Assembly: GCF_019212185.1 (NCBI RefSeq)
Contig: NZ_CP078138.1
Location: 2,400,501 to 2,464,500 of the forward strand
Source of the DNA: Pseudomonas fluorescens
GTDB taxonomy: Bacteria > Pseudomonadota > Gammaproteobacteria > Pseudomonadales > Pseudomonadaceae
Length of the DNA stretch: 64,000 nucleotides
Direction of reading: 5' to 3'
Below, piece by piece: positions 12,525-30,615 of the stretch. Positions within the stretch are counted from its first letter, which is position 1. Each line of letters begins with the position of its first letter. The notes under the pieces were generated by a model. That model made no database searches, was not told the DNA's origin, and saw nothing but the letters and a program-made list of their open reading frames with translations. Both the position numbers and the translations under genes were made by a program.

Positions 12525-13575
12525 TATAATTCAAGGGGTTGCGAGATTCTATCTCGCGACCCCTTTTTATTTTTAGGTGTTTTTACCCCTACAAAAGCTC
12601 TGGCTCTTGGTGGAATCTTCAGCTGATACAAAGGTCATGGCGCGAGGAGAGTGCCTCGCTGTGTCCTGGTCGCTCGAGCAGAAGGGGACGACCGTTAAAG
12701 AGCCTTTTCCGGCGCCGGTTGGTCGTTGGGTTGGGCGATGATTGTTTTGAGTTCTGCGCTCATGGGGAATTTGAGATTCAAGCCTTTGGGAGGGATGGGC
12801 TGAGTAAACCATTTATCGTAGATGGCGTTGATTTCGCCCGAGACGAAAAGTGACTTGATCGAGTCATCCACGACTTTTTTGAGATCCGGATCACCCCGAC
12901 GCATGGTGCAACCATAAATTTCGTTGGATTGCGGGGTGCCGGTCACCACCCAATCTTCCGGTTTCTTTGCCTTGGCCATCTCGCCCGCCAGCAATGCATC
13001 GTCCTGCATAAACGCAATGGCGCGGCCGGACTCGAGCATTTGGTAAGACTCACCAATGTCTTTGGCAGAGATGACGTTCATGTTCATCTTTTTCTCGGCA
13101 TTCATGACCTTGAGCATCCGCTCGGCAGTGCTGCCAGCAGTGGTCACTACGTTCTTGCCATTGAGATGGTCAAAGTCTTTGTAGGTCGAATCCTTTCGGA
13201 CCAACAGTCGGGTGCTGGCTTCGAAGATGCCGACTGAAAATTCGACTTGCTGCGCCCTCTCTGCGGTATTGGTTGTAGAACCGCACTCCAGATCGACAGT
13301 ACCGTTTTGCACAAGCGGGATGCGCGTTTGTGACGTCACCAGGTTGTACCGTACGTTCAGCTCGGGCATCTCAAGTTCCTGCTTGATAGCGTCGACAATT
13401 TTCAATTGGATATCATGGGAGTAGCCAACTGGTTTGCCGGAAGCATCGGCGATGTAGGAGAACGGAATTGAAGAGTCTCGGTGCCCCAGGGTTATGGTCC
13501 CCGAGTTCTTGATTTTTTTAAGTGTACCGGTAAGTTCGGCAGCCATCGCTGGCGTGAAGGTTAACGCCGCAGTCA
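12480..13575. repeat. Long direct repeat, left (intact) copy
   Basis: This stretch, from the tRNA fragment through the terminator and most of the binding-protein gene, recurs at 33552-34468. By eye there are about 18 substitutions over ~880 aligned bases (~98% identity) plus one extra T in the right terminator. The right copy lacks 179 bases corresponding to 13359-13537. The repeat ends inside the signal-peptide codons of the binding protein. Confidence 0.9.
12535..12575 (+). terminator. tRNA-Pro Rho-independent terminator, left copy
   Basis: GGGGT-GCGAGAT pairs with ATCTCGC-ACCCC (one asymmetric base), followed by TTTTTATTTTT. It is the terminator of the original tRNA-Pro gene, retained with the att fragment. 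Confidence 0.88.
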
Positions 13576-13609
13576 GAGTAGCGCCCAGCATTGCAGGGAA
13601 GACTCGCAT
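12695..13609 (-). CDS. Periplasmic glutamate/aspartate-type ABC solute-binding protein
   Basis: 304 residues from ATG 13609 (GAGGAG upstream; a longer reading adds non-signal residues). A classic signal peptide (MRVFPAMLGATLTAALTFTP, cleavage after AMA) precedes a bacterial family 3 binding domain: 'GTITLGHRDSSIPFSY', 'QNGTVDLECGSTTNT' and later 'MRRGDPDLKKVVDDS'. It resembles GltI/AatJ proteins for acidic amino acids. It is the last gene of the catabolic operon, 95 bases after the aldehyde dehydrogenase. No permease or ATPase gene lies nearby, so it would need a transporter encoded elsewhere. The gene is duplicated in broken form at 33768. Confidence 0.88.
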   Translation of the reverse strand: MRVFPAMLGATLTAALTFTPAMAAELTGTLKKIKNSGTITLGHRDSSIPFSYIADASGKPVGYSHDIQLKIVDAIKQELEMPELNVRYNLVTSQTRIPLVQNGTVDLECGSTTNTAERAQQVEFSVGIFEASTRLLVRKDSTYKDFDHLNGKNVVTTAGSTAERMLKVMNAEKKMNMNVISAKDIGESYQMLESGRAIAFMQDDALLAGEMAKAKKPEDWVVTGTPQSNEIYGCTMRRGDPDLKKVVDDSIKSLFVSGEINAIYDKWFTQPIPPKGLNLKFPMSAELKTIIAQPNDQPAPEKAL

Positions 13610-13704
13610 CAAAAGCTCCTCATAAGGGTGGGGCGAGTCTTTTTCTGACTCGCCCATCTTTGGCTCAGCGGACGTTTTCGCTGGGCTTGGCGACTTGCTT
13701 GATG

Positions 13705-15096
13705 TTAGTGACGGTCCAGCCAGACGGTCTGTGCATTACAGAACTCGCGCACACCGAAATGCGACAGTTCACGGCCAAAACCGCTTTTCTTTACGCCGCC
13801 GAAAGTGACGCGTGGGTCGGTTGCGCAATAGCCATTGATGAATACGCCTCCGGTTTCCAGTTCGCCCGCCAGCTTCTGGGCCAGTTCGACATTGCGTGTG
13901 TAGATGGTCGAGGCAAGCCCGAACTCACTGTCGTTGGCCAGTTCCAGTGCGTGTGCTGCGTCCCGCGCGGTGATGATCGATGCCACGGGCCCAAACAATT
14001 CCTGTTTGAATGAGGTCATCTGGTCGGTGACATCACCAAATACCGTAGGCTCGTAGTAGTTGCCAGGGCCTTCGGCTTTTCTGCCTCCCAACAACAAGGT
14101 CGCACCTTCTTCCAGGGTATCCCGGACCTGACGATCCAGTTCATCGCGCAGATCAAAACGGGCCATGGGTCCGATGTAAGTGTCTGTGGCCAGTGGATCG
14201 CCAATGACCAACTTGCAGGTGGACTCGACAAACTTGCGGGTAAACTCCTCGACAACGCCTTGCTCGACAATCAGGCGTTTGGCAGCCGCGCAGACTTGTC
14301 CGGTGTTTTGATAGCGGCCAATCACAGCGGCTTTGACGGCTTCGTCTAGGTCGGCGTCGTTGAGCACAATGAATGGATCTGAGCCACCCAGTTCCAACAC
14401 GCACTTCTTCAAGGCTGCACCCGCCTGCGCGCCAATAGCCATGCCAACTCGAACACTGCCTGTGAGCGTCACTGCTGCGATGCGAGGATCTGCTATCGCA
14501 GTTGAGACACCGTCGGGCGTGACATTGATGACTTCGAACACACCATCAGCAAAGCCGGCGCGCTTGAACGCGTCTTGCAGCAGATAGGCGCATCCCATCA
14601 CGTTCGGCGCATGTTTGAGGACGTAGGTATTGCCGGCAATCAACGCCGGGACGGCGCCGCGCAGCACCTGCCAGACGGGAAAGTTCCACGGCATCACGGC
14701 GAGAATCGGGCCCAGTGGGCGATATTCAATTCGTGCCTTTCCGCCCTCAACCTGTGTGGGTTCGGCAGTCAGCATGGCGGGGCCGTGTTTGGCGTACCAC
14801 TCACAGAGCTGCGCACACTTTTCAATCTCACCGCGCGCCTGAGTGTTGGGTTTGCCCATCTCTTGAGTGATCATCTTCGCCATCGTTTCTGCGCTGTCGC
14901 GCAATGCCCTTGCCAAAGCGATGAGTGCTTGCGAACGCATTTCGACGGGTTGGCTACGCCAGGTGTAAAACCCTGTAATCGCACGTGACAGTGACGCCTC
15001 CAGTTCCGCTGCGGATTCGAAGGGGTAGTGGCCGATCTGCTCACCATTGGTGGGGTTGATTGAAATGGCATGGGTAAGGCTGGAAACGTTAGTCAT
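13705..15096 (-). CDS. Sad/YneI-like succinate-semialdehyde-type dehydrogenase
   Basis: 463 residues from ATG 15096; upstream codons have no homology. It follows E. coli Sad (YneI) almost end to end by memory: HAISINPTNGEQ, CEWYAKHGPAML, 'MPWNFPVWQV' (Asn138), 'LELGGSDPFIVLNDADL' (Glu235), 'NTGQVCAAAKR' (nucleophile Cys269) and a FINGYCATDPRVTFGG C-terminus. It should oxidise a C4-dicarboxylic semialdehyde with NAD(P). In this operon the likely substrate is succinic semialdehyde carrying a methyl or methylene group, produced by the ThDP decarboxylase at 21105-22228. Confidence 0.9.
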   Translation of the reverse strand: MTNVSSLTHAISINPTNGEQIGHYPFESAAELEASLSRAITGFYTWRSQPVEMRSQALIALARALRDSAETMAKMITQEMGKPNTQARGEIEKCAQLCEWYAKHGPAMLTAEPTQVEGGKARIEYRPLGPILAVMPWNFPVWQVLRGAVPALIAGNTYVLKHAPNVMGCAYLLQDAFKRAGFADGVFEVINVTPDGVSTAIADPRIAAVTLTGSVRVGMAIGAQAGAALKKCVLELGGSDPFIVLNDADLDEAVKAAVIGRYQNTGQVCAAAKRLIVEQGVVEEFTRKFVESTCKLVIGDPLATDTYIGPMARFDLRDELDRQVRDTLEEGATLLLGGRKAEGPGNYYEPTVFGDVTDQMTSFKQELFGPVASIITARDAAHALELANDSEFGLASTIYTRNVELAQKLAGELETGGVFINGYCATDPRVTFGGVKKSGFGRELSHFGVREFCNAQTVWLDRH

Positions 15097-15157
15097 GACA
15101 CCGTCCTGTAGGATGGGAATGGATGCATAGCTTCTAAGCAACAGCGCCGGTGTTGAA

Positions 15158-15973
15158 TCAGATCGCGCGAGCCAAAATGGATTGGGCGCGACCAATGACC
15201 GGGGCATCGACCATTTGCCCATCCAGCACGAAAACGCCTTCACCTGAACGAGCGGCTTCGATAATGCGTTGCGCCCAGTGCAATTCTTCCTGGCTTGGTT
15301 TTAGCGCCTGATGAATGATCGCGACTTGGGTTGGATGGATACACAGCGCGCCACCAAAGCCCATGTCGCGTGCAAAATGAACCGCGCGTAGCAGCCCTGC
15401 GGTGTCCTGGATCGACGGAAATACCCCATCCAACGCTGGAGCGAGCGCTGCAACTCGGGTGGCGAGCAAAACGGCGTAGCGCGCATGGCTAAGGATTTCT
15501 TCAGCGGCAGGGCTGCCAGTAGTCAGGTTCAGGTCCAGACCCAGATCCAGACTACCGAACGACAAGCGCTCAACACTTTGAGTGCCGGCAATCTCGTTTA
15601 ATGCTGACAAGCCCTTGGCGCTTTCGATGATTGGCCAAATCGGTTTTTCGGTACCCGCAGCAGTGGTGACATGTTTCGCGCTTTCTGCTTTGGGCAGCAG
15701 AATTCCGATCACGCCGGCGTGGCGTCGGCAAAGATCCAGATCTGCAACATGCGCCCAGTGATCCGGGGCATTCACTCGGACCAGAATCCGTGCATCCGAG
15801 GCTTCGGTCAGGAACGCGTCGAGATTATCCCTGGCCTGCTCCTTGAGGTTTTCTTGCACGGCATCTTCCAAGTCAACGATGACCCGATCCGCCCCGGTGG
15901 CAATAGCTTTTGAGATGCGCTCTGGTCGAGTGGCCGGCACAAACAGGGCGGAGCGAACAATTGATTTGCTCAT
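15158..15973 (-). CDS. CitE-like CoA-ester lyase (citramalyl/malyl-CoA lyase type)
   Basis: 271 residues, HpcH/HpaI-CitE fold: 'ALFVPATRPERI' at 9-20, DRVIVDLEDAV with Glu36/Asp37, 'ILVRVNAPD' with the substrate-binding Arg, 'SFGSLDLGLDL' and the terminal 'IHPTQVAIIH'. These are the Mg- and CoA-ester-binding elements of citrate, malyl-CoA and citramalyl-CoA lyases. Size and motif order match Ccl of the Pseudomonas itaconate pathway. It should cleave a 3-hydroxy-dicarboxyl-CoA to acetyl-CoA plus a 2-oxoacid. It overlaps the hydratase gene by four bases (ATGA), so consecutive steps are translationally coupled. Confidence 0.85.
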   Translation of the reverse strand: MSKSIVRSALFVPATRPERISKAIATGADRVIVDLEDAVQENLKEQARDNLDAFLTEASDARILVRVNAPDHWAHVADLDLCRRHAGVIGILLPKAESAKHVTTAAGTEKPIWPIIESAKGLSALNEIAGTQSVERLSFGSLDLGLDLNLTTGSPAAEEILSHARYAVLLATRVAALAPALDGVFPSIQDTAGLLRAVHFARDMGFGGALCIHPTQVAIIHQALKPSQEELHWAQRIIEAARSGEGVFVLDGQMVDAPVIGRAQSILARAI

Positions 15974-16815
15974 GGCGTTGCTCCATTGCTGAACTCGATC
16001 TCTCCGATCTGTGCTGTGCCGTCCTGATTGCCAGCCCAGACCTGTGCCTTGCCGTTTTCGATTAGACGTCCGCCCACCTCGAAAGGCTGAGGCGAAATCA
16101 GAGGTCGTACTCCGCGGAATGCGAAACGCTCCAGGCGCGCAGTTGGATGCGCTTTGGTAAAGGCACGTAAATTCAACGTGGCGATCAATGGACCATGTAC
16201 CACCAGCCCCGGATAACCTTCGGTCTCTGTCACATACGGCCAGTCATAGTGAATACGATGACCATTGAAGGTCACTGCGGAATAGCGAAACAGCAGGGTT
16301 GGAGTGGGCTCTATCCGTTCCTGCCATTGGCCTTCAGGTAGCTTTTCGGTACCGTTCAGTTTGGGCGGGGAAGGTTCACGGTAAACAATGTCCTGATCGT
16401 CTTGTAGGGCGCGTTTGCCGTCCTGGAAAAACTCATGGCGTACTGTGACGAACAATAAGGAACCCGTGCGACCGTGCTTCTCCTCGACGTTGAGGATGGT
16501 CGATACACAGCTCACTTCAGCATCCACTTTTAATGGCTGGAAAAACTCAATTCGGCTTCCCGCCCACATGCGATTGCGGTTATGGGCCGGCGGCAAAAAT
16601 CCCCCAAGCGCTGGATGGCCGTCCGGCCCCAGTTCGCTGGCACCCACCGGCTCCTGAAAAAATGCCCAGTGCCACAGGGGCGGCAGCGGCTCACCGGGTT
16701 GTGGTGCCGACTCGCCCAATGTCGCGGCAATGCGTCTGACCAGAGTGAAACTGATCCGGTCCTGGCTTTCCTGACGTCGTCCAATCCAGGCGGAAAAATC
16801 GGAACTGCTGCTCAT
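15970..16815 (-). CDS. FAS1/MaoC-like acyl-CoA hydratase (itaconyl/mesaconyl-CoA type)
   Basis: 281 residues. The N-terminal half resembles the FAS1-like dehydratase domain ('WHWAFFQEPVGASELGPDGH', 'MWAGSRIEFF'). The C-terminal hot-dog domain holds 'RYSAVTFNGHRIHYD' (Asn184, His186, His189, Asp191) and 'YPGLVVHGPL', the catalytic loop of R-hydratase/HTD2 enzymes. Mesaconyl-C4-CoA hydratase and Pseudomonas itaconyl-CoA hydratase have this two-part architecture. It should add water to an unsaturated dicarboxyl-CoA such as mesaconyl-CoA, giving the CitE-like lyase its substrate. Confidence 0.82.
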   Translation of the reverse strand: MSSSSDFSAWIGRRQESQDRISFTLVRRIAATLGESAPQPGEPLPPLWHWAFFQEPVGASELGPDGHPALGGFLPPAHNRNRMWAGSRIEFFQPLKVDAEVSCVSTILNVEEKHGRTGSLLFVTVRHEFFQDGKRALQDDQDIVYREPSPPKLNGTEKLPEGQWQERIEPTPTLLFRYSAVTFNGHRIHYDWPYVTETEGYPGLVVHGPLIATLNLRAFTKAHPTARLERFAFRGVRPLISPQPFEVGGRLIENGKAQVWAGNQDGTAQIGEIEFSNGATP

Positions 16816-16840
16816 ATTCTTTGCTCCAATCGGTCAGTGA

Positions 16841-17770
16841 TCAAGCCAGGGTGGCCATTTCTGGAATCGCTTCAAAAAGATCCGCCACCAGGCCGTAATC
16901 GGCCACCTGGAAGATCGGCGCTTCTTCGTCCTTGTTGATCGCAACGATCACTTTGGAGTCTTTCATGCCGGCCAGGTGCTGGATCGCGCCGGAGATACCG
17001 ACCGCGATGTACAGCTGTGGAGCAACGATCTTGCCGGTCTGACCGACCTGCATGTCGTTGGGTACAAAACCTGCGTCGACCGCGGCGCGCGAAGCACCGA
17101 CGGCAGCGCCCAGCTTGTCGGCCAGGGCGTACAGGTGTTTGAAGTTGTCGCCGTTCTGCATGCCGCGGCCGCCGGAAACGACGATCTTGGCAGCGGTCAG
17201 TTCCGGACGATCGGACTTGGCCAGTTCTTCGCCGACGAAGCTGGAGATGCCAGCGTCGTGAGCAGCAGCAACCGCTTCAACAGCAGCCGAACCACCTTCA
17301 GCGGCAACCGGGTCGAAACCGGTGGCACGCACGGTGATCACTTTCACTGCAGCGCTCGATTGAACGGTAGCGATGGCGTTACCCGCGTAGATCGGACGCT
17401 TGAAAGTGTCGGCGCTTTCTACCGAGATGATCTCGGAGATCTGGTCAACGTCCAGTGCAGCGGCAACGCGCGGCAGGATGTTTTTGCCGTTGGAAGTGGC
17501 GGCAGCCAGGATGTGGCTGTAGCCATTGCCCAACTCTGCGACCAGAGGAGCGACGTTTTCCGGCAGTTGGTGAGCGTAGGCAGCGTTATCAGCGACCAAT
17601 ACTTTGCTCACGCCAGCCACTTGCGCAGCGGCTTCAGCCACGGCACCAACGCCCTGACCCGAAACCAGTACATGCACGTCACCACCGATTTTGGCGGCAG
17701 CGGTTACGGTGTTCAGCGTGGCCGGGGCCACTGCTTTGTTGTCGTGTTCAGCGATTACCAAGATAGTCAT
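16841..17770 (-). CDS. etfA: Electron transfer flavoprotein alpha subunit
   Basis: 309 residues, full length. The C-terminal FAD-binding domain is plain: [16 protein letters not shown], '[17 protein letters not shown]', [20 protein letters not shown] and '[19 protein letters not shown]'. EtfAB accepts electrons from acyl-CoA dehydrogenases and passes them to ETF-ubiquinone oxidoreductase. Pseudomonads normally keep etfBA next to that oxidoreductase, so an additional set inside a catabolic operon suggests a dedicated partner for the dehydrogenase at 19875. It follows etfB after 16 bases. Confidence 0.95.
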
Positions 17771-17786
17771 GATTAGGCTCCTAAGC

Positions 17787-19874: not shown

Positions 19875-21038
19875 TTAAAAGGAGCGCGGCAGTTCGAGCA
19901 GGTGTTCAGCAACGTACGACAGGATCAGGTTGGTAGAGATGGGCGCCACCTGATACAGACGGGTTTCTCGGAATTTGCGCTCGACGTCGTACTCGCAGGC
20001 AAAACCAAAACCGCCGTGGGTCTGCAAGCAAGCATTCGCGGCTTCCCAAGAGGCTTTCGCCGCCAGGTACTTGGCCATGTTGGCGCTGGCCCCGGCGTTG
20101 ATGCCGCTGTCGTATTCCTCGCAAGCACGCCAGCGCATCAGGTCAGCCGCTTCGATTTCAATGTGTGCTTCAGCGATGGGGAACTGCACGCCTTGGTTCT
20201 GCCCGATAGGGCGACCGAACACGACGCGATCACGCGCATAGGCGCTGGTTTTTTCGATAAACCAGCGACCGTCGCCAATGCATTCGGCGGCGATCAGTGT
20301 GCGCTCGGCGTTCAGGCCATCCAGGATGTAGCGGAAACCTTTGCCTTCCTCGCCGATGAGGCTATCGGCAGGAATTTCGAGGTTGTCGAAGAACAGTTCG
20401 TTGGTTTCGTGATTGACCATGTTGGCGATCGGCTGCACGGTCATGCCGTTGCCGATGGCCTCGCGTAGATCGACGAGGAAGATCGACATGCCTTCGGATT
20501 TTTTCTTCACGTCGGTCAACGGCGTGGTACGCGCCAGCAAGATCATCAGATCGGAGTGCTGGACGCGCGAGATCCAAACCTTCTGCCCGTTGATCACATA
20601 CTTGTCACCTTTGCGCACGGCGGTGGTCTTTATCTTTGTAGTGTCGGTACCGGTAGTGGGTTCGGTGACGCCCATCGATTGCAGGCGCAATTCGCCGCTG
20701 GCCAGTTTCGGCAGGTAGTAGCTTTTCTGCGCCTCGCTGCCGTGTCGTAGCAGGGTGAACATGTTGTACATCTGGCCGTGCACGGTGCCGGAATTACCGC
20801 CGCAGCGGTTCACTTCTTCCAGGATTACCGAGGCCTCAGCCAGCCCGAGGCCGGAGCCACCATATTCGACAGGGATCATCGCTGCCAGCCAACCTGCGTC
20901 GGTCAGTGCCTTGACGAAGGTTTCCGGAAAGCCTTTTTCTTCGTCGACTTTGCGCCAGTAAGCCGCATCGAATTCAGCGCACAGAGCGCGTACGCCCTCG
21001 CGGATGGCATTGAGTTCTTCAGAGTTACGGTCAGTCAT
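19875..21038 (-). CDS. Acyl-CoA dehydrogenase with IVD-type catalytic Glu
   Basis: 387 residues from ATG 21038 behind GAGGAG. The FAD/substrate motifs are 'SMGVTEPTTGTDTTKIKTTA' and 'YVINGQKVWISRVQHSD', and the C-terminus has 'QTHGGFGFACEYDVERKFRE'. The usual catalytic Glu of the Y-E-G segment is missing: 'LYQVAPISTN' replaces it. Glu245 in 'DGLNAERTLIA' lies where isovaleryl-CoA dehydrogenase has its base, a position suited to branched acyl-CoAs. It resembles the acyl-CoA dehydrogenase of the P. aeruginosa itaconate locus (PA0879) by memory. Dehydrogenation of methylsuccinyl-CoA to mesaconyl-CoA fits the operon. Confidence 0.88.
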   Translation of the reverse strand: MTDRNSEELNAIREGVRALCAEFDAAYWRKVDEEKGFPETFVKALTDAGWLAAMIPVEYGGSGLGLAEASVILEEVNRCGGNSGTVHGQMYNMFTLLRHGSEAQKSYYLPKLASGELRLQSMGVTEPTTGTDTTKIKTTAVRKGDKYVINGQKVWISRVQHSDLMILLARTTPLTDVKKKSEGMSIFLVDLREAIGNGMTVQPIANMVNHETNELFFDNLEIPADSLIGEEGKGFRYILDGLNAERTLIAAECIGDGRWFIEKTSAYARDRVVFGRPIGQNQGVQFPIAEAHIEIEAADLMRWRACEEYDSGINAGASANMAKYLAAKASWEAANACLQTHGGFGFACEYDVERKFRETRLYQVAPISTNLILSYVAEHLLELPRSF

Positions 21039-22401: not shown

Positions 22402-23616
22402 TTAACGCAGAGAAGTACAGAATGTACGGATCGCCTCGCAGGCCCGGCGCAATGAAGCGTCATCCAGGGCGTAGGCAATGCGAATGTAAGGGCCAAGTCC
22501 AAAAGCGCTGCCATGCACTACGGCGACATCCGCTTCGTCGAGCAGCGCATGCGCGACATCTTCGTCGGTGTGCAGTACCCGGCCACCCGCTGAGGTACGC
22601 CCGATCAATCCGGCACAGGACGCGAACGCGTAGAACGCCCCGGCTGGACTGACGCATTCAAGGCCTGGGGTGTCGTTCAGCAGCGCCACCATCAAATCGC
22701 GACGACTCTGGAATGCCACCCGGCTTTCACGGATGAAATCCTTGGGACCTTCCAGTGCCGCGAGCGCAGCCTGTTGCGACACAGAGCTGGCGCCAGAGGT
22801 TTGCTGACCTTGCAGTTTTTCCATGGCTTCCAGCAACCAGCGCGGCCCTGTGGCGAAACCGATTCGCCAGCCGGTCATGGCATAGGCCTTGGACACACCG
22901 TTCATGGTCAGGGTGCGAGGTGCCAGTCGTGGTTCAACCTGGGCCAGGGTGTAGAACGCTTGATCATCAAAAATCAGATGCTCGTAGATGTCATCGGCCA
23001 GAATCAGCACGTGAGGGTGAGCCAACAACACCTCAGCCAAGGCGTGCAGTTCTTCCCGGCTATACACCGCGCCGGTCGGGTTGGACGGCGAATTGAGGAT
23101 CAACCAGCGGGTCTGCGGTGTGATCGCGGCGGCCAGCGCCGAGGGCGTCAGCTTGAAGCCAGTGTCGGCGTCGCAAGTAACGATTTGGGCTTCACCGCCA
23201 CACAATTGAACCATCTCCGGGTAACTGACCCAGTACGGCGCCGGCACGATAACTTCGTCACCCTCATTGAGGGTCGCGGCCAAGGCGTTGTAGATCACCT
23301 GTTTGCCACCGTTGCAGACAAGGGTCTCTTGCCAGGCAACGTCCAGACCGTTCTCACGACGGAACTTGGCGGCCACTGCTTCTCGCAGTGAACGTACACC
23401 GGCGACCTGGGTGTAGCGGGTGTGGCCGTGTTCAATGGCATGAATGGCCGCTTCACGCACATGCTTTGGCGTATCGAAATCCGGCTCGCCGGCACACAGC
23501 GAAATAATTTTCGCGCCTTGCCCCCGGCGTTCTGCCACCCGATCCATGATTCGGTAAGTCGCGGACGGCTGCGCATTGGCTAAACGCTGATTTAGACGCT
23601 GGATATCGGCGCTCAT
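22402..23616 (-). CDS. Class I/II aminotransferase (aspartate aminotransferase-like)
   Basis: 404 residues from ATG 23616, which overlaps the upstream aldolase stop (ATGA). PLP-binding features of fold type I: SLCAGEPDFDTP (substrate loop), 'NSPSNPTG' (Asn179), 'ADDIYEHL' (Asp208/Tyr211), 'NGVSKAYAMTGWRIG' (Schiff-base Lys243) and a C-terminal 'YIRIAYAL' with the carboxylate-binding Arg. It is of the bacterial aspartate/aromatic Igamma type. Here it should convert the incoming amino acid, proposed to be a 4-substituted glutamate, to the 2-oxoacid used by the decarboxylase or the aldolases. Confidence 0.88.
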   Translation of the reverse strand: MSADIQRLNQRLANAQPSATYRIMDRVAERRGQGAKIISLCAGEPDFDTPKHVREAAIHAIEHGHTRYTQVAGVRSLREAVAAKFRRENGLDVAWQETLVCNGGKQVIYNALAATLNEGDEVIVPAPYWVSYPEMVQLCGGEAQIVTCDADTGFKLTPSALAAAITPQTRWLILNSPSNPTGAVYSREELHALAEVLLAHPHVLILADDIYEHLIFDDQAFYTLAQVEPRLAPRTLTMNGVSKAYAMTGWRIGFATGPRWLLEAMEKLQGQQTSGASSVSQQAALAALEGPKDFIRESRVAFQSRRDLMVALLNDTPGLECVSPAGAFYAFASCAGLIGRTSAGGRVLHTDEDVAHALLDEADVAVVHGSAFGLGPYIRIAYALDDASLRRACEAIRTFCTSLR

Positions 23617-24251
23617 GCGCGAGTTCTCCACTCAGTCAGGTTCATCAGTTCCAGGGTCGAACGGCCCTCGGTCAACGCCTGCATCATCTGCGCTTCCTTG
23701 TCCGCCCGCGCTTCACCTTCTGCCAGGGTGCGTGCGGCATCCGCTTTGGGAATGATGATCACACCATCATCGTCGGCCACCACCCAGTCGCCCTGTGTCA
23801 CGAAGGCACCATTGAAATTGAACGGCTGCCCCACCGAAGGCGCACTAGCCTTGACTGTGCCTTTCAGCGAGATGCCGCGGGCGAACACCGGGAACTGGCG
23901 TTTCTTTAGGGCCGCAATATCGCGTACGCCACCATCGATCACCAGCCCGACCACGCCAGCCGCTTCGGCCGCCACGGTGAGCACTTCGCCCCAATAACCG
24001 GCGATGAAACCACCCGTACCGACGACCAGCACGCTGCCACGGGGCACACGTTCCATCGCAAGGTGCAGGGCGAGGTTGTCGCCGGGTGAGCATTCCAGAG
24101 GGTAAGCGGGGGCGGAGATAAAGGCACCGTCCCAGATCGCGCGGATCGCGCTGTCGACCGCGCAAGACAGATGAGATGCTTCATACAGCGTCGAACTGCC
24201 AAGCACTTTTGCCCGTGCGTAAGAATCCAGGGGGAGGGGGAGCATAGTCAT
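23613..24251 (-). CDS. RraA-like HMG/CHA aldolase-type protein (copy 1)
   Basis: 212 residues. 'GLVIDGGVRDIAAL' carries the Arg110-Asp111 pair that binds substrate and metal in 4-hydroxy-4-methyl-2-oxoglutarate (HMG) aldolase. It is followed by the family's G-D-x-V-x-A-D-D-x-G-V block ('GDWVVADDDGVIIIPKADA'). HMG aldolase splits 4-hydroxy-4-methyl-2-oxoglutarate to two pyruvates and also decarboxylates oxaloacetate. Of the three copies this one is closest to the canonical aldolase pattern. It is coupled by start/stop overlaps to copy 2 upstream and to the aminotransferase downstream. Confidence 0.82.
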   Translation of the reverse strand: MTMLPLPLDSYARAKVLGSSTLYEASHLSCAVDSAIRAIWDGAFISAPAYPLECSPGDNLALHLAMERVPRGSVLVVGTGGFIAGYWGEVLTVAAEAAGVVGLVIDGGVRDIAALKKRQFPVFARGISLKGTVKASAPSVGQPFNFNGAFVTQGDWVVADDDGVIIIPKADAARTLAEGEARADKEAQMMQALTEGRSTLELMNLTEWRTRA

Positions 24252-24913
24252 CAGACTTTCCTCTGCAGGTTGTGGTAACCCAGTGCGGCCCGGGCTTCTT
24301 TAAGGGTTTTGCCTTGGCTGATCAGGGCGCGAATCTCGGCTTCGACCGATTCGATCTGGCGGGCACATGTCGCCACTTCAGCCGCATGGGCGCGGGGGAC
24401 GATCACCACGCCGTTGGCGTCAGCGACCACGATGTCGCGGGCACAGACCCGGACGGTGCCGATGGACACCGGCTGGTTGACCGACTGAACCTGTACGCGG
24501 TCTTTGCCGGTGCGCATGAAGCGGCCCTTGCTGAAGATCGGGTAGCCATCGCCCAGTGCTTTGTTCACGTCACGGCAAACACCGTCGATGACCGTGGCAG
24601 CGATCTGCCGAGTACCGGCGTACTGGGTCATGATGTCACCCCAGACGGTGCAGTCGGTGCGGCCGCCGTTGTCGATGACCACCACGTCGCCCGGTGCCAC
24701 GTCTTCGATGAAATCGCCCACGGTGCCCGGAGGTACGCTGGCCGTGACGTACTGCACGGTGAACGCGGGACCGACGATGACCTTGCTGTAGTTGTCCAGT
24801 GGCGCCACTCCGAGGCATTGGCCGGGTAGGCCGAGTTTGTCCAGCGCATCGGAGACGCCCGGGGTGTCCAGGCCTTCAAACAAGGCGACCAGTTCTTTGT
24901 CTTCGATATTCAT
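24251..24913 (-). CDS. RraA-like aldolase family protein (copy 2)
   Basis: 220 residues. It opens with 'GLDTPGVSDALDKLGLPGQC', typical of the RraA/dimethylmenaquinone-methyltransferase-like group. It keeps 'VIDGVCRD' (Arg114, Asp115) and 'ARDIVVADANGVVIVPRAHA'. Its N-terminus differs from copy 1 but resembles copy 3, so copies 2 and 3 are the closer pair. Retention of the metal/substrate residues argues for an enzyme rather than an RNase E regulator. Its start and stop codons overlap the neighbouring genes by one base. Confidence 0.8.
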   Translation of the reverse strand: MNIEDKELVALFEGLDTPGVSDALDKLGLPGQCLGVAPLDNYSKVIVGPAFTVQYVTASVPPGTVGDFIEDVAPGDVVVIDNGGRTDCTVWGDIMTQYAGTRQIAATVIDGVCRDVNKALGDGYPIFSKGRFMRTGKDRVQVQSVNQPVSIGTVRVCARDIVVADANGVVIVPRAHAAEVATCARQIESVEAEIRALISQGKTLKEARAALGYHNLQRKV

Positions 24914-25578
24914 CAGGCGTGCTCCGTGTGGATCGCTTCGAATTGGGTGTCATGCATCACTTCGGCGACCGAGCGACCGCTGCGGACAGCCTCGACCATG
25001 CCGTCCTGGCGGCGGGCAATACGCTCGCCAAGGTCGAGCACTTTCTCGATATAGGCTGAGGGCACGAACACGGTGCCGCAGGTATCGGCGATGACATAGT
25101 CGTTCTCGCTGACCTCGACGCCGGCCACGTTGATGGATACGGCGGCATCGATCTGCACCACCCGATTGCGGGCACTGATCATGGTCACCCCGCGGCCATA
25201 AACCGGGTAGCCAATCGACTCGCTGCCGTCGATGTCGCGGCTGAAACCGTCGATTACCGTGCCGCGCACTTTCTTGCTGGCCGCTGCATTGGCGAGGATA
25301 TCGCCCCAGCAGGAGATACCTTCGATGCCACCTGCGATCACCAGCACACGATCATCGCTGTCGATCTGTTCCACCACGGGGGTAATCAGGTGCACAGTGG
25401 GGGCGTTGTCGGATTTAGGAGCCAGCAGTACGGTGCTGGCGCGGCCGACAATCTTTGGGCAGTTCCACAGTGGGCGCAGCCCAACAGTGGCACCCGGCAG
25501 GCCGAGGAAGTCGAGCGCATCGGAGACCGTGTTGGTATCCAGCGCCGCCAAGCGATCCAGCAAACTCTTATTGATCAT
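24913..25578 (-). CDS. RraA-like aldolase family protein (copy 3)
   Basis: 221 residues, first gene of the catabolic operon. 'LDTNTVSDALDFLGLPGATV' parallels copy 2, and 'VIDGFSRDIDG' keeps Arg114-Asp115. The C-terminal block is 'ENDYVIADTCGTVFVP', where Cys replaces the Asp/Asn-Gly of the other copies. Three consecutive family members suggest different substrates, stereoisomers or hetero-oligomers. The promoter lies in the 105-bp gap to the divergent LysR gene. Confidence 0.8.
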   Translation of the reverse strand: MINKSLLDRLAALDTNTVSDALDFLGLPGATVGLRPLWNCPKIVGRASTVLLAPKSDNAPTVHLITPVVEQIDSDDRVLVIAGGIEGISCWGDILANAAASKKVRGTVIDGFSRDIDGSESIGYPVYGRGVTMISARNRVVQIDAAVSINVAGVEVSENDYVIADTCGTVFVPSAYIEKVLDLGERIARRQDGMVEAVRSGRSVAEVMHDTQFEAIHTEHA

Positions 25579-25640
25579 GGGAAAGCCCCAGTGGTGACGG
25601 AGGCGCCCAGTGTCAGTGAGACAATTTGATAGGTATATTA

Positions 25641-25659
25641 CTAATCACAGATGCGTTAG
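25641..25659. promoter_or_regulatory. LysR-type operator in the divergent promoter
   Basis: CTAA-N11-TTAG is a textbook T-N11-A LysR box. It lies 25 bases before the LysR start and 63 bases before the first operon gene. A wider inverted repeat, ATAGGT (25629-25634) and ACCTAT (25669-25674), surrounds it. Confidence 0.65.
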
Positions 25660-25683
25660 ATACGTTAAACCTATGGATTAATC

Positions 25684-26577
25684 ATGATCAATTTTCGACT
25701 GATTCGTCATCTCTGGTTGTTCCTGGCGGTGGCCGAAGAACAGAACTTCGGCCGTGCGGCCAAGCGTTTGGGCATGTCCCAGCCACCGCTGAGCGAGCAG
25801 ATCCAAGTGTTGGAGCAGGCGCTCAAGGTCAAGCTGTTTGATCGCTCGCGACGCGGTGCGAAGCTGACCCCGGTGGGAGCGGCGATTCTGCCAGCCGTGC
25901 GCAAGTTCGCCGACCAATTGGAGCGGTTGGAACTCGCCGTGGAGGAGGCGGTGGCGGGGCAGTCGGGGATGTTGACCATCGGCGCGATTTCTACGGCCAT
26001 GTTTGATGTCTTGCCGGGTTTGATCGAGCAACTGAAGAGCGATTACCCGCACCTCACCGTGTCTGTACGGGAGATCGACAGCGTCGAAGCGGTCCCGGCG
26101 CTGGAAGCCGGGGATATCGACCTGGCTTTCGCCCGGCTGGACGGTGATCTGGGGGCCTCGATCAAATCACTGCCGCTGACTCAGGACCGCCTGGTTGTGG
26201 CCCTGCCCAGCGATCACCCCTTGGCTGCGCGCACGCGAATCAGCCTGTCCAGCCTGGCCACTGAACCCTTGGTGATGTTTTCCCGAAAGGTTAGTCCGGT
26301 CTACTTCGACAATCTGATCGCGACTTGCCGCGCCAGCGGTTTTTCCCCGCGCGTGCTGCATGAAGTGCGCTCGGTCGCCTCGCAAATTGCCTTTGTCAGC
26401 TGCGGCCAGGGTATCGCACTGGTACCAGCGTCGCTGAAAAAACTGGCACCGGACAATGTGGTATTCCGAGCACTGATCCAGAAGCTCAATGTCGTGACCA
26501 CTGCGGTGGCCTGGAATGCAGATCGGCCCAATCCGCTGGTGCAGGAGCTGGTCACCCGTCTCCAGTCCCGTGTGTGA
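25684..26577 (+). CDS. LysR-family regulator of the catabolic operon
   Basis: 297 residues. The N-terminal winged HTH is 'FLAVAEEQNFGRAAKRLGMS' followed by 'QPPLSEQIQVLEQALKVKLF'; a CbnR/CatR-like co-inducer domain follows. The phrase 'FGRAAKRLGMSQPPLS' is typical of regulators of aromatic and organic-acid catabolism. It is divergent from the operon across 105 bases containing a T-N11-A site, the usual layout for activation of the operon and self-repression. The inducer is unknown; an operon intermediate is likely. Confidence 0.9.
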   Translation: MINFRLIRHLWLFLAVAEEQNFGRAAKRLGMSQPPLSEQIQVLEQALKVKLFDRSRRGAKLTPVGAAILPAVRKFADQLERLELAVEEAVAGQSGMLTIGAISTAMFDVLPGLIEQLKSDYPHLTVSVREIDSVEAVPALEAGDIDLAFARLDGDLGASIKSLPLTQDRLVVALPSDHPLAARTRISLSSLATEPLVMFSRKVSPVYFDNLIATCRASGFSPRVLHEVRSVASQIAFVSCGQGIALVPASLKKLAPDNVVFRALIQKLNVVTTAVAWNADRPNPLVQELVTRLQSRV

Positions 26578-26736
26578 GTCGACCAAGGCCCTATGCGTGA
26601 ACAAGAATGATAGGTTTGGCGTATGAAAGCCTTCCCGTATTAGGAATTTACAGAAGGCTCGATTCCCTTGAAATTGCGAGCCTGGCTGCCGGCAACCCAG
26701 GTTCGGCGGTACCTTTTCGTTCAAGGAGTCAACAAC

Positions 26737-27555
26737 GTGTCTTCTCCAGAAACGTTCACTCATGTGCAACTCCCTCTGACGGTGGAGGGTGTCCAACTGA
26801 ACGTGGCCGCCATCCATCGCGACGGCGTCCTTGCGCCGATCGTGTTCCTGCATGGTTTTGGTTCGACCAAGGAGGACTATGCCGACATCGTGCAGCAGCC
26901 CGCGTTCGCCGGTCACCCTTTCGTGGCTTACGACGCACCGGGTTGCGGCGAAAGCCAGTGCAGTGATCTTTCCAGAATCTCCATTCCCTTTCTGCTGCAG
27001 ACTGCGTTGCAGGTGCTGGCGCATTTTGGCATCGGACGCTTCCATTTGGTCGGCCACTCCATGGGTGGGCTGACCGCGCTGATGCTGGCCCACCAGTTCC
27101 CGGACCGGGTGCTTAGTTTCGTCGATATCGAGGGCAATATCGCCCCGGAAGACTGCTTCCTCAGCCGGCAGATCATCGACTATCCGAGCAACGATCCCGA
27201 GGTGTTTTTCGCCGCCTTCATCGAACGTGCCCGACACGCCCCTGCCTATGCCAGTGCACTCTATTCCGCGAGCTTGCGGCACAAGGTGCGTGCCGGTGCG
27301 GTGCGGGGGATATTCCAGTCGATGGTAGATCTTTCAGATAATGCCGATCTGATGAGCAAATTCCTCGGCTTGAAATGTCCACGAATGTTCATGTACGGCG
27401 AGCAGAACGCGTCACTGTCCTATCTGCCGCATATCCAGGCCGAAGGTGTCCGGCTGGCCCCCATTCCTGATTGCGGGCATTTCCCGATGTATTCCAACCC
27501 CATCGCGATGTGGCAACAGATCGCCGATTTCCAGGTGAGCAGCCTTACCGGGTAA
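26737..27555 (+). CDS. Alpha/beta hydrolase of the island
   Basis: 272 residues from GTG 26737, chosen because AAGGAG lies 8 bases upstream; the frame is open earlier without homology. Motifs: 'VFLHGFGSTKEDY' (oxyanion), 'VGHSMGGLTALML' (nucleophile Ser108) and 'PDCGHFPMYSNP' (catalytic His). No signal peptide. It follows the LysR gene on the same strand. It may release the pathway's substrate from an ester or amide, or hydrolyse a CoA ester; the sequence does not decide. Confidence 0.8.
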   Translation: MSSPETFTHVQLPLTVEGVQLNVAAIHRDGVLAPIVFLHGFGSTKEDYADIVQQPAFAGHPFVAYDAPGCGESQCSDLSRISIPFLLQTALQVLAHFGIGRFHLVGHSMGGLTALMLAHQFPDRVLSFVDIEGNIAPEDCFLSRQIIDYPSNDPEVFFAAFIERARHAPAYASALYSASLRHKVRAGAVRGIFQSMVDLSDNADLMSKFLGLKCPRMFMYGEQNASLSYLPHIQAEGVRLAPIPDCGHFPMYSNPIAMWQQIADFQVSSLTG

Positions 27556-27721
27556 GCCCGGTCGTCCTGAGGGCTTCCTGATCATTCGCGGGAGCCTGGC
27601 CAGGCCACGAAGTTGAAATTCAAAAGCTGATTCAGTCACTTCTCCTGCCTTTGGGCGGCGACGTGTGCAGGCGCGTGCGTGCCTGAAATCCGTGTACCTA
27701 TAACAACAAGAGGTTCGACCC

Positions 27722-29176
27722 ATGCTTGATGTCATTAATGATTTTCTCTCCGGCAAGCTTCTGATCGTGCTCATCGTAGGCCTGGGCGGCTACTTCACGG
27801 TGCGTTCACGCTTTGTCCAGTTCCGCCATTTTCTGCATATGTTCGGCGCCTTCCGCGATAGCGTGCAAAAGAGTGCCGGGCAGATCAGCTCCTTCCAGGC
27901 CTTGATGCTTAGCCTGGCGGGGCGCGTAGGTGCGGGCAATATCGCCGGTGTCGGGTTGGCGGTAACGCTGGGCGGGCCGGGCGCGGTGTTCTGGATGTGG
28001 GTGACGGCGCTGGTGGGTATGTCCACCAGCTTCTTTGAATGCAGCCTGGGGCAATTGTACAAACGGTGTGATGCGAACGGACAGTTCCGCGGCGGGCCGT
28101 CGTACTACATCCAGTACGGACTGAAACAACCCTGGCTGGGCAAGGTCATGGCGTTACTGCTATTGGTGACCTTTGGTTTCGCCTTCAACGGACTGCAATC
28201 CCATGCCGTGACTCACTCGCTGAATAATGCGTTCGGTTTCTCTACGACCTACTCCGGCATTACGATTGCCATATTGCTTGGCCTGGTGTTCATGGGTGGC
28301 ATCAAGCGCATCGCCGCGGTCTCGGACCTGCTGGTGCCGGTCAAAACGCTGGCTTACATTGGCGTGACCGTTTATGTGATCGTGCTCCAGTTTGATCATG
28401 TTCCCGGAATGCTGATGACCATCTTCAAAAGTGCTTTCGGCCTGGATCAGGCGTTTGCCGGCCTGGTCGGCAGTGCCATTGTCATGGGCGTCAAACGTGG
28501 GGTGTTTGCCAACGAGGCGGGACTGGGGAGTGCTCCCAACGTAGCTGCGGTGGCGAAAGTGGATCACCCGGCGGCTCAAGGGGTGGTTCAGGCCTTCAGC
28601 GTTTTTCTCGATACCTTTGTGATCTGTACCTGTACGGCGCTGCTGATTCTGCTGTCAGGCTTTTACACGGCTGGTTTTGAAGGCGATGGCCTGGTGCTGA
28701 CTCAGAACGCGTTGGCGGCAGTGGTCGGAGACTGGGGACGCACCTTCATCAGCGTGGCGTTGGCTCTGTTTGTCTTCACGTCGATTCTCTACAACTACTA
28801 CCTGGGCGAGAATAACCTGCGCTTTCTGCTGGGCGACAAGCGCGCTGCAGTCATTGTCTATCGTGGTTTGGTGCTGCTGCTGATCCTTTGGGGGGCCGTA
28901 CAAAATCTGGGCACTGTGTTCGCTTTTGCCGATATCACCATGACGCTGCTGGCCTTCGTGAATCTGATCGCCCTGGCGCTGTTGTTCAATGTCGGCATGC
29001 GCTTGCTGCGCGACTATGACCAGCAACGCAAAGCCGGTATCAAGACGCCTGTCTTCGATTCAAGTCAGTTCAAGGATCTTGATCTTGATTTGCAGGCATG
29101 GCCGAACCGGGAACACGCGGCCAACGTCCCCGCCGAAACTATCACTCAAGTTGCACCTGCATCCGCTACCCAGTGA
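27722..29176 (+). CDS. AGCS-family sodium:amino acid symporter
   Basis: 484 residues with about ten membrane segments. The start MLDVINDFLSGKLLIVLIVG and the motifs 'SLAGRVGAGNIAGVGLAVTL', 'GGPGAVFWMWVTALVGMSTS' and KRGVFANEAGLGSAPNVAA are those of alanine/glycine:cation symporters (AlsT/DagA). One oddity is Arg in 'SLAGRVGAGNIAG', where most members have a 'T/S-x-G' run. Placement in the island suggests uptake of the amino acid substrate. A terminator follows directly. Confidence 0.88.
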   Translation: MLDVINDFLSGKLLIVLIVGLGGYFTVRSRFVQFRHFLHMFGAFRDSVQKSAGQISSFQALMLSLAGRVGAGNIAGVGLAVTLGGPGAVFWMWVTALVGMSTSFFECSLGQLYKRCDANGQFRGGPSYYIQYGLKQPWLGKVMALLLLVTFGFAFNGLQSHAVTHSLNNAFGFSTTYSGITIAILLGLVFMGGIKRIAAVSDLLVPVKTLAYIGVTVYVIVLQFDHVPGMLMTIFKSAFGLDQAFAGLVGSAIVMGVKRGVFANEAGLGSAPNVAAVAKVDHPAAQGVVQAFSVFLDTFVICTCTALLILLSGFYTAGFEGDGLVLTQNALAAVVGDWGRTFISVALALFVFTSILYNYYLGENNLRFLLGDKRAAVIVYRGLVLLLILWGAVQNLGTVFAFADITMTLLAFVNLIALALLFNVGMRLLRDYDQQRKAGIKTPVFDSSQFKDLDLDLQAWPNREHAANVPAETITQVAPASATQ

Positions 29177-29180
29177 TGCA

Positions 29181-29213
29181 AAAAGGGCCCATGGATCTCA
29201 TGGGCCCTTTTCA
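29181..29213. terminator. Bidirectional terminator between convergent transporter genes
   Basis: AAAAGGGCCCATG pairs with CATGGGCCCTTTT around a short loop, with A and T runs on both sides. It serves the AGCS gene on the plus strand and the MHS permease gene on the minus strand. Confidence 0.88.
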
Positions 29214-29238
29214 AATACCTGCTGTAATCGTCAGTGCT

Positions 29239-30615
29239 TCAAACGCTCGCAGCGTGTGACTTTGCGCAACCCTTCAAACCGGTGCGCTCTTCGATCTCAC
29301 CGGAACCGCTGATGTACCCATAGCGCGAAAGATTCGGCATCAGCATCGCGGCGATGAAAGTGATGGTCACGACGGCCGCGACATAGAAGAAGAAATATTC
29401 CTCAATGCCTTGGGACCGGAGCGACAAGGCGACGTATTCGGCGGTGCCGCCGAATGCCGCATTGCCGATGGCATACGGAAAGCCTACGCCCAATGCGCGT
29501 ACCGCAGGTGGGAACAGTTCAGCTTTGACGATCCCGGCAATCGGGGTGTAGAGCGACGCAATGGCCAGGCCACCAAACACCAGCAGGAACGCCGTAAACG
29601 GGCTGCTGACCGATTGCAGTGAATAGAGCAGGGGAATCACCAACAGCATCGCCAACCCGGAAAACATCAGCATGTGCGCCTTGATCCCGATACGGTCCGC
29701 CAGCAAGCCGAACAGTGGCTGGCAGAACATGAAACCGACCAGGGCCGCGGTCATGATGAAACTAACCGTTTCCGGGCTGAAACCGGCTGAGATCACCAGG
29801 AACTTCTGCATATAGGTGGTGAAGGTGTAGAAGTACAAAGAACCACCGATGGTAAACGCTACCACCAACGCGACCGCCCGTTTGTGCTTGAACATGCCGC
29901 GTAGCGAGCCGGCGTCTTTGCGGCTCATGTCTTTCTTGGTGGCGGTTTCATGCATGGCGCGGCGCAGATACACCACCACGATTGAGCTCAGGGCACCGAT
30001 GAAGAACGGAATCCTCCAGCCCCATTCGCGCAATTCTTCGCCGGTGAGGGTTTGCTGGAGAATGACCACGGTCATCAATGCCAAGAGCTGACCGGCAATG
30101 ATGGTGAAGTACTGAAAGGAGCCATAAAAACAGCGACGCCCAGGTGTCGCGATTTCACTTATGTAGGTGGCGCCGGTGCCGTACTCCGCGCCGACTGACA
30201 GCCCCTGAATCAGCCTGGCGACGACAAGCAAAACTGGCGCCGCCACACCGATGGTTTCATAGGTCGGCATGACGGCAATCAACAAGGAACCGGCGCACAT
30301 CATGAACACCGAGATAATCATCGATACCTTGCGGCCGCGGGTATCAGCAATCCAGCCAAAAATCCAACCGCCGAGCGGCCGCATGAAAAAGCCGACGGCG
30401 AAGACGCCGGCGGTTGCGAGCAACTGACTGGTGGTGTCGCCTTTGGGGAAAAACGAGCTTGCAAAATAGATGGCGGTATAGGCGTAAATGAAAAAGTCGT
30501 ACCACTCCACCAGATTGCCCGAGCAGGCACCCATGATGGCTCTGACGCGATTCGGACTTTTTATCTGATCGGACTTTTCAGTGTGGAGTGTTGAGTCGCT
30601 GGTTGATGCAGACAT
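29239..30615 (-). CDS. MHS-family permease, KgtP-like (2-oxoglutarate type)
   Basis: 458 residues from ATG 30615; 14 further upstream codons lack support. Twelve membrane segments. 'GNLVEWYDFFIYAYTAIYFA' and 'RPLGGWIFGWIADTRGRK' are MHS-family signatures. The order 'SVGAEYGTGATYISEIA', 'GQLLALMTVVILQQTL', 'REWGWRIPFFIGAL' and 'GGSLYFYTFTTYMQKFLV' follows E. coli KgtP, the 2-oxoglutarate:H+ symporter. A 2-oxoglutarate-like substrate fits the proposed pathway intermediate 4-methyl-2-oxoglutarate. It is convergent with the AGCS gene. Confidence 0.87.
   Translation of the reverse strand: MSASTSDSTLHTEKSDQIKSPNRVRAIMGACSGNLVEWYDFFIYAYTAIYFASSFFPKGDTTSQLLATAGVFAVGFFMRPLGGWIFGWIADTRGRKVSMIISVFMMCAGSLLIAVMPTYETIGVAAPVLLVVARLIQGLSVGAEYGTGATYISEIATPGRRCFYGSFQYFTIIAGQLLALMTVVILQQTLTGEELREWGWRIPFFIGALSSIVVVYLRRAMHETATKKDMSRKDAGSLRGMFKHKRAVALVVAFTIGGSLYFYTFTTYMQKFLVISAGFSPETVSFIMTAALVGFMFCQPLFGLLADRIGIKAHMLMFSGLAMLLVIPLLYSLQSVSSPFTAFLLVFGGLAIASLYTPIAGIVKAELFPPAVRALGVGFPYAIGNAAFGGTAEYVALSLRSQGIEEYFFFYVAAVVTITFIAAMLMPNLSRYGYISGSGEIEERTGLKGCAKSHAASV

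Follow-up and report, generated by a model that had tools for sequence, protein, structure and literature searches.

A two-module gene cluster of Pseudomonas fluorescens with a probable role in the catabolism of 4-substituted glutamates

The closest described system to the locus considered here is the itaconate/methylsuccinate cluster of Pseudomonas aeruginosa, PA0878-PA0886, the enzymes and growth phenotypes of which have already been published (PMC12290011, PMC9875883). The work of Gonner et al. 2025 (PMC12290011) on this lower pathway covers C. necator; De Witt et al. 2023 (PMC9875883) report that P. putida carrying the cluster needs PA0879 to grow on methylsuccinate. The published coenzyme A (CoA)-transferase prefers (R)-methylsuccinate. 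We analysed a 64,000-nucleotide stretch of Pseudomonas fluorescens DNA (contig NZ_CP078138.1, positions 2,400,501 to 2,464,500; hereafter the window), in which counterparts of four of these enzymes are encoded together with an aminotransferase, a two-subunit thiamine diphosphate (ThDP)-dependent decarboxylase, a semialdehyde dehydrogenase and three RraA-type proteins. We conclude that the cluster probably consists of two catabolic modules that serve 4-substituted glutamates and the corresponding 2-oxo acids.

The lower half of the pathway leads from methylsuccinate to acetyl-CoA and pyruvate. Our reference was a P. aeruginosa record with the PA0878-PA0886 gene order, in which locus numbers were set by that order and by the published description. 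Against it, methylsuccinyl-CoA dehydrogenase (Mcd) is 93.7% identical, the succinyl-CoA:itaconate/methylsuccinate CoA-transferase (Ict) 76.5%, itaconyl-/mesaconyl-C4-CoA hydratase (Ich) 70.1% and (S)-citramalyl-CoA lyase (Ccl) 67.2%; the lyase scores under the NCBIfam RipC_Ccl model cut-off (170.7 vs 375), and Mcd has no counterpart among solved structures at E <= 1e-60. Since these four enzymes are close relatives of characterised ones, the route from methylsuccinyl-CoA through mesaconyl-CoA and citramalyl-CoA to acetyl-CoA and pyruvate, which an initial annotation of the window had proposed, is strongly supported and, judging from sequence, nearly certain to be encoded here. This half is known from the literature and is not new, a point that the initial annotation overlooked. 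The host genome, searched as a single contig of 6.34 Mb, holds no second Ict of the same kind (best match 37%). An MmgE/PrpD methylsuccinate isomerase is absent from the window by tblastn and has a best match of 27% in the whole genome; there is likewise no PA0880-type gene in the window and no TRAP carrier among the cluster genes. All genes named in the initial annotation are open reading frames, at these positions of the window:

24913..25578, minus strand: Rra3, RraA/aldolase-like (module A); RraA-type NCBIfam matches under cut-offs
24251..24913, minus strand: Rra2, RraA/aldolase-like (module A); closest solved chain 3K4I, labelled uncharacterized
23613..24251, minus strand: Rra1, likely 4-hydroxy-4-methyl-2-oxoglutarate-type aldolase (module A); closest solved chain 3NOJ (HMG/CHA aldolase)
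22402..23631, minus strand: aminotransferase of aspartate aminotransferase type (module A, hinge to module B); PRK06107 533 bits, cut-off 617
21689..22228, minus strand: predicted ThDP-dependent 2-oxo acid decarboxylase, alpha subunit; TIGR03845 104.9 bits, cut-off 147.95
21105..21701, minus strand: predicted ThDP-dependent 2-oxo acid decarboxylase, beta subunit; TIGR03846 132.9 bits, cut-off 221.5
19875..21038, minus strand: Mcd; identity to the PA0879-type protein measured over 383 aa
18599..19801, minus strand: Ict; identity to the PA0882-type protein measured over 400 aa
17787..18536, minus strand: EtfB, likely electron acceptor of Mcd; Etf beta families
16841..17770, minus strand: EtfA; Etf alpha families
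15970..16815, minus strand: Ich; identity to the PA0878-type protein measured over 274 aa; Pfam FAS1_DH_region
15158..15973, minus strand: Ccl; identity to the PA0883-type protein measured over 271 aa; HpcH_HpaI
13705..15096, minus strand: Sad/YneI-like semialdehyde dehydrogenase; PRK13968 762 bits, cut-off 855; nearest solved chain Sad 8QMQ, 664 bits
12695..13609, minus strand (likely start 13609; open reading frame from 13657): periplasmic binding protein, Glu/Asp type; NF008063 372.7 bits, cut-off 375
25684..26577, plus strand: LysR1, divergent from module A; LysR families
26668..27555, plus strand: alpha/beta hydrolase, possible lactone/ester opener; weak hydrolase family matches including PcaD-type, and only unspecific hydrolases among solved structures
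27722..29176, plus strand: AGCS-type amino acid:Na+ symporter; TIGR00835 464.9 bits, above cut-off 272.65
29239..30615, minus strand (likely ATG 30615): KgtP-type MFS carrier, module B partner; NF007710/PRK10406 586.3 bits, above cut-off 550
31019..32044, plus strand: LysR2, associated with module B; LysR families

The minus strand carries fourteen genes in a row, beginning with Rra3 (25578) and ending with the binding protein (12695), in the order, 5' to 3', of three RraA-like genes, aminotransferase, ThDP alpha, ThDP beta, acyl-CoA dehydrogenase, family III CoA-transferase, EtfB, EtfA, hydratase, lyase, Sad-like dehydrogenase and binding protein. Intergenic gaps measure -19 to +95 bp, with the exception of 173 bp between the aminotransferase and ThDP alpha. 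LysR1, the alpha/beta hydrolase and the AGCS gene follow on the plus strand, and then the KgtP-like MFS gene (minus) and LysR2 (plus).

The exact substrate, its transport and the steps of deamination, decarboxylation, semialdehyde oxidation and aldol cleavage are inferred, as follows. Module A, comprising LysR1, the hydrolase, the AGCS carrier, the three RraA-type proteins and the aminotransferase, would take up and deaminate the amino acid; a hydroxylated form would be cleaved by Rra1, as 4-hydroxy-4-methyl-2-oxoglutarate, to two pyruvate. Module B comprises LysR2, the KgtP-type carrier, the ThDP decarboxylase, the Sad-like dehydrogenase, Ict, Mcd with Etf, Ich and Ccl. Its decarboxylase would convert 4-methyl-2-oxoglutarate to methylsuccinic semialdehyde, which the Sad-like dehydrogenase would oxidise to (R)-methylsuccinate; this would be activated with succinyl-CoA and then pass through mesaconyl-C4-CoA and (S)-citramalyl-CoA to acetyl-CoA and pyruvate. 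A 4-methylene substrate would enter as itaconate, bypassing Mcd. Because an isomerase is absent here and the published CoA-transferase favours (R)-methylsuccinate, the predicted substrate epimer is (4R)-4-methylglutamate; C4 of 4-methylglutamate becomes C2 of methylsuccinate with priorities unchanged, so that a (4R) substrate would yield the (R) product. The substrate may belong to the 4-methyl, 4-methylene or 3-methyl series, and may be taken up as the amino acid or as the oxo acid.

Comparison within the genus ties the decarboxylase to the lower pathway. Of 398 Pseudomonas genomes, 23 have ThDP beta (22 of them at 86-100% identity, one at 49%), and in all 23 it lies with Mcd. Across the 22 close loci, namely the window and 21 fetched stretches of up to 20 kb each, Mcd lies directly downstream of the ThDP genes in every case, and the grouping is therefore not chance. 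The CoA-transferase is present in 20 of these loci, missing from one and cut off by the contig end in another. For hydratase and lyase the corresponding figures are 14 present, one absent and seven cut; EtfB, plus EtfA where the contig continues, is present in 16, absent from five and cut in one. RraA and aminotransferase genes share the stretch in 13. At the locus with 49% identity (L146), the distant ThDP pair (49-51%) stands directly upstream of a complete canonical Ich-Mcd-isomerase-Ict-Ccl cluster, with identities to P. aeruginosa of 67% for the hydratase, 90% for Mcd, 78% for the isomerase, 74% for the CoA-transferase and 57% for the lyase; further upstream are Liv-type ABC transporter genes (a binding protein and one ATPase identified) and a flavin adenine dinucleotide (FAD) oxidase of sarcosine-oxidase/ThiO type, and a PxpC-like gene lies at the edge. 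A search with ThDP alpha across the order returned the window's own genome only (1 of 390). Another locus, L156, carries a 71% homologue of the Glu/Asp-type binding protein with permeases and an ATPase. In the window itself a second, truncated copy of this protein (33771-34430, minus strand; 98% identity over 220 residues to the operon copy) lies past the MFS and LysR2 genes and is, by its sequence, evidently a recent partial duplication.

The initial annotation treated these genes as one operon, which is too simple; the locus is two modules, each with its own LysR gene. In relatives the 14 genes split at the 173-bp gap, and the two halves can stand in opposite orientations, be separated, or be present singly. 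LysR1 adjoins Rra3 in most relatives whose stretch reaches it, and LysR2 lies beside the MFS and/or ThDP genes in relatives that have no module A in the stretch. A promoter and terminator scan placed no promoter-like site in the 173-bp gap but is uninformative on transcription units, since it returned 2 sites overall, fewer than in shuffles (mean 7.1). Rra3 is present in 27 of 249 Pseudomonas genomes, 14 with and 13 without ThDP beta, that is, in 14 of 15 ThDP genomes vs 13 of 234 others (Fisher p ~1e-14, an approximate value that makes an assumption as to which 249 genomes were drawn and ignores kinship and linkage). The modules occupy different contigs, at least tens of kilobases apart, in genomes G070 and G081, and two contigs too short to judge distance in G076; in G081 an MFS gene and 5-oxoprolinase genes follow module A. 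With its aminotransferase and aldolases, module A alone looks from its gene content to be self-sufficient. Among its neighbours away from ThDP (ten genes, seven loci) no further pathway step was identifiable; they are TonB receptor, DUF3422, flagellar, chemotaxis, transporter, peptidase U32, enolase-superfamily and pyridine-nucleotide reductase genes.

Pseudomonas sp. KUIN-1 (L008) has a 100% identical copy of the acyl-CoA dehydrogenase protein. Of the aminotransferase and the Sad-like gene it has only short matches (8476-8629 and 15971-16195), which suggests that this strain has lost module A together with the Sad-like enzyme. A Burkholderia cenocepacia plasmid (L175) encodes three RraA homologues (71-77%), an aminotransferase (73%) and a hydrolase (75%), a diverged module A 6-9 kb from a diverged ThDP pair, with insertion sequences nearby. 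Between module A and the ThDP genes of this plasmid, at 7597-8195, Ich-like matches occur in two pieces, and a short aldehyde dehydrogenase gene adjoins an IS3 element; L175 is apparently a decaying copy of the pathway.

The upper half, a predicted series from glutamate analogue to 2-oxo acid, semialdehyde and substituted succinate, is new and plausible, with independent comparative support. The best family names for the ThDP pair are sulfopyruvate and phosphonopyruvate decarboxylase, all below curated cut-offs: both subunits fall short of the sulfopyruvate decarboxylase ComDE equivalogs by the scores listed above, and the phosphonopyruvate decarboxylase model TIGR03297 (cut-off 312.5), which describes a single-chain enzyme, gives 104.8 bits for beta and 52.7 for alpha. 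The nearest solved chains to the aminotransferase are aspartate aminotransferases A and B. In the literature searched (open-licence papers, with older plant and Pseudomonas biochemistry largely outside it), we found no description of an upper pathway of this kind; by title and start of abstract, there was also, among the papers listed, no report of bacterial breakdown of 4-methyl(ene)glutamate, and nothing relevant that links sulfopyruvate decarboxylase, 5-oxoprolinase or an aminotransferase to the lower enzymes.

RraA-type proteins form trimers, and the three tandem paralogues could form a mixed oligomer. Rra1 is identical to 3NOJ at nine of 11 checked positions (Asn71, His75, Arg123, Asp124, Gly144, Thr145, Lys147, Arg195, Glu199), deviating by Leu for Arg40 and by Glu for Asp102, which we take to be a functional position in HMG/CHA aldolase. 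Alone of the three proteins, Rra1 combines the catalytic Arg123 and the metal ligands Asp124 and Glu199 with most of the 3NOJ pocket residues; it lies below the family cut-offs (PRK09262 164.3 vs 179; ligK_PcmE 153.4 vs 304.5). Rra2 has equivalents of Arg123, Asp124 and Glu199 but not of Asn71 and His75; Rra3 has those of Arg123 and Asp124, with Gln at the Glu199 position. Apart from Asp102, residue roles follow the available portion of PMC5065237. The aldolase branch for the hydroxy form, put forward in the initial annotation, thus suits Rra1; Rra2 and Rra3 miss several pocket residues.

Beyond the order, the comparison took in 15 of the 19 loci present in 16 further genomes, and 12 of 37 plasmid records. 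In Bosea (L169) and Haematobacter (L171) the ThDP, aldehyde dehydrogenase, Mcd, CoA-transferase, hydratase and lyase genes are all together. Upstream of the ThDP-methylsuccinate operon of L169 (pB32-2), at 7586-10259, are MmgE/PrpD genes and an NADP isocitrate dehydrogenase gene (718 bits, cut-off 335); we would speculate that these could make 4-methyl-2-oxoglutarate from a methylated isocitrate. On a tree of 46 chosen ThDP pairs, in which near-copies inflate clustering and several branches are long, the Mcd-linked state takes seven changes, at least five of them forced by well supported branches, and the ThDP-Mcd link has therefore been gained or lost several times. Genome-level co-occurrence of ThDP and Mcd-like genes outside the order (15 of 16 vs 64 of 398 in a phylum draw that includes them) was set aside, as nine of the 16 belong to one genus, identities are mostly 62-68% and three pairs are adjacent.

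A substrate with a glutamate skeleton is suggested by sister ThDP loci, where 5-oxoprolinase genes, FAD oxidases or a gene resembling glutamate dehydrogenase are present. 5-Oxoprolinase converts pyroglutamate to glutamate, and its genes lie within 10 kb of ThDP homologues at L138, L140, L141, L142, L173, L174, L177, L178 and L181, pointing to substituted pyroglutamate or glutamate as the probable natural substrate class of the ThDP system. At L138, L140, L173 and L174, 5-oxoprolinase subunit genes and an FAD oxidase accompany the ThDP and aldehyde dehydrogenase genes and homologues of Mcd, Ict and Ich, and of these four L173 and L174 have the lyase; the PxpA of L173 passes its subfamily cut-off (353 vs 226). 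Deinococcus L178 has 5-oxoprolinase genes and Mcd at 72%, and L141, L142 and L177 have 5-oxoprolinase genes and no Mcd in the stretch. Conserved SDR, VOC and NAD(P)H-dependent oxidoreductase genes lie beside the ThDP and 5-oxoprolinase genes of L173, L174, L177, L138 and L140, which suggests a more complex pyroglutamate-type substrate there.

All seven Bradyrhizobium plasmid records with ThDP have peanut as their source, and peanut is known for 4-methyleneglutamine; as a confounder, peanut strains may make up most of the Bradyrhizobium with plasmids in the collection. The one examined, L181 (Bradyrhizobium guangxiense p53363, 222000-266000), has a distant ThDP pair (39-47%), 5-oxoprolinase genes, a hydratase, a racemase-family gene, a glutamate dehydrogenase-like gene (435 vs 750 bits) and a CoA-transferase 60% identical to that of the window, and no Mcd or lyase homologue within 44 kb. 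We regard it as a candidate 4-methyleneglutamate locus, with the gene content expected for a 4-methylene substrate.

Several observations weigh against assigning the cluster to 4-substituted glutamates. To our knowledge, no upper-half enzyme has a relative assayed on a branched substrate. Rra2 and Rra3 both differ at the Asn71, His75, Thr145, Lys147 and Arg195 positions. Locus L154 has no Ict, Ich or Ccl near ThDP-Mcd. The ThDP family is broader, with an Mcd-like gene nearby in only three of 15 distant loci (81, 65 and 66%) and near ThDP in six of 12 plasmid loci (65-80%); outside the order, 15 of 16 ThDP genomes have an Mcd-like gene (identity mostly 62-68%), but only three have it beside ThDP. 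The PxpC of L177 misses its equivalog cut-off (143.9 vs 500). Except at L146, the 5-oxoprolinase variants have a dehydrogenase of only 65-72% identity and other CoA enzymes, as far as found, of 41-55%, so the substrate or substituent may differ. Module A lacks ThDP beta in 13 of its 27 genomes, and module B lacks module A in the same stretch at nine of 22 loci, three of those genomes having it elsewhere. This separability, like the separate LysR genes, is what one would expect if module B served a branched 2-oxo or 2-hydroxy dicarboxylic acid taken up as such, with module A an independent amino acid/aldolase pathway, its neighbour by chance. A KgtP-type carrier or SDF symporter near module B, even with no module A in the stretch, fits that alternative, as does the GlcD-like oxidase after ThDP in L131. 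There, at 10956-13501, the ThDP pair (82/77%) is followed by a 360-aa protein with no NCBIfam match and the GlcD-like FAD oxidase. The L131 stretch contains no CoA-ester module, and the decarboxylase may serve a different purpose in it, on 2-hydroxy acids. We consider two independent pathways unlikely, however, given that the modules keep company in ThDP genomes (14 of ~15, vs 13 of ~234 others, kinship ignored) even when far apart, as in G070 and G081, and that the diverged module A and the diverged ThDP pair of Burkholderia L175 also lie close together.

An alternative to the favoured 4-substituted series is 3-methylglutamate or 3-methyl-2-oxoglutarate, which would give the other methylsuccinic semialdehyde and the same methylsuccinate, a point absent from the initial annotation. 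Enzymes past the semialdehyde step cannot distinguish the two series, and 3-methylglutamate occurs in lipopeptide antibiotics such as daptomycin. Yet the Rra1 active site fits a 4-hydroxy-4-methyl-2-oxoglutarate aldolase and thereby favours substitution at C4, and the RraA genes have no evident role on a 3-substituted substrate; we hold the 3-methyl series to be rather improbable, Rra1 being the single feature that appears to favour 4-methyl over it. The putative upper route from a glutamate-type amino acid finds support in comparative genomics. Were the locus simply a relocated itaconate/methylsuccinate cluster, with unrelated aminotransferase and ThDP genes, this would account for the presence of all four known enzymes and for the absence of a further such Ict elsewhere in the genome; we judge this very unlikely, because PA0878-PA0886 has an isomerase and a TRAP carrier that are missing here, the ThDP genes lie directly upstream of Mcd in 22 of 22 genomes, and L146 joins a distant ThDP pair to the canonical cluster. 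A different substrate series, such as sulfopyruvate, phosphonopyruvate or 2-oxoadipate, is hinted at by the best family names of the ThDP pair and by a gene annotated cysteine dioxygenase near the distant ThDP pair of L181, which could mean a sulfur substrate there. Against it stand the scores under the curated cut-offs for both families, the lack of a sulfonate or phosphonate gene among the annotated window genes, and C5-branched CoA enzymes of which one is 94% identical to a characterised type, and we give it scarcely any credence.

The sister loci with 5-oxoprolinase, FAD oxidase or glutamate dehydrogenase-like genes, which, with the two-module structure, also escaped the initial annotation, invite a wider and decidedly tentative proposal, which we think may well prove wrong. 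A widespread and hitherto undescribed system in Proteobacteria and Deinococcus might convert branched glutamates to branched succinates, with a core of ThDP decarboxylase and semialdehyde dehydrogenase, exchangeable entry steps (aminotransferase, FAD oxidase, glutamate dehydrogenase, 5-oxoprolinase) and a methylsuccinyl-CoA/itaconyl-CoA outlet; it would be an in-cell source of methylsuccinate and itaconate, with a dehydrogenase-free plasmid version in peanut Bradyrhizobium consuming host 4-methyleneglutamate or 4-methyleneglutamine. If our reading of the two-module cluster is correct, branched non-protein amino acids would provide an aerobic, intracellular origin for methylsuccinate, which soil bacteria eat yet whose source is largely unexplained, and the uncharacterised ThDP decarboxylase family and RraA-type genes would acquire functions. 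The soil fate of 4-methyl-, 4-methylene- and 4-hydroxy-4-methylglutamate would become directly testable.

Set beside described systems, the two-module cluster of the window shares its lower pathway with PA0878-PA0886, through Ict, Mcd, Ich and Ccl at 67-94% identity, but is without the MmgE/PrpD isomerase, PA0880-type gene and TRAP carrier of that cluster, and adds an aminotransferase, ThDP decarboxylase, Sad-like dehydrogenase, RraA genes, EtfAB and amino acid/oxo-acid carriers. Like LigK (3NOJ), Rra1 retains nine active-site positions of HMG/CHA aldolase; unlike the LigK system, the window has two extra divergent RraA copies and no aromatic ring-cleavage gene among the genes annotated. The dehydrogenase is homologous over its full length to Sad/YneI (PDB 8QMQ) but is below the PRK13968 cut-off, and its expected substrate is methyl-branched. 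The decarboxylase belongs to the same family as the two-subunit ComDE/Ppd-type enzymes, with separate alpha and beta ThDP subunits, and differs from them in scoring under the equivalog cut-offs, in its neighbourhood and in its expected substrate, a branched 2-oxoglutarate.

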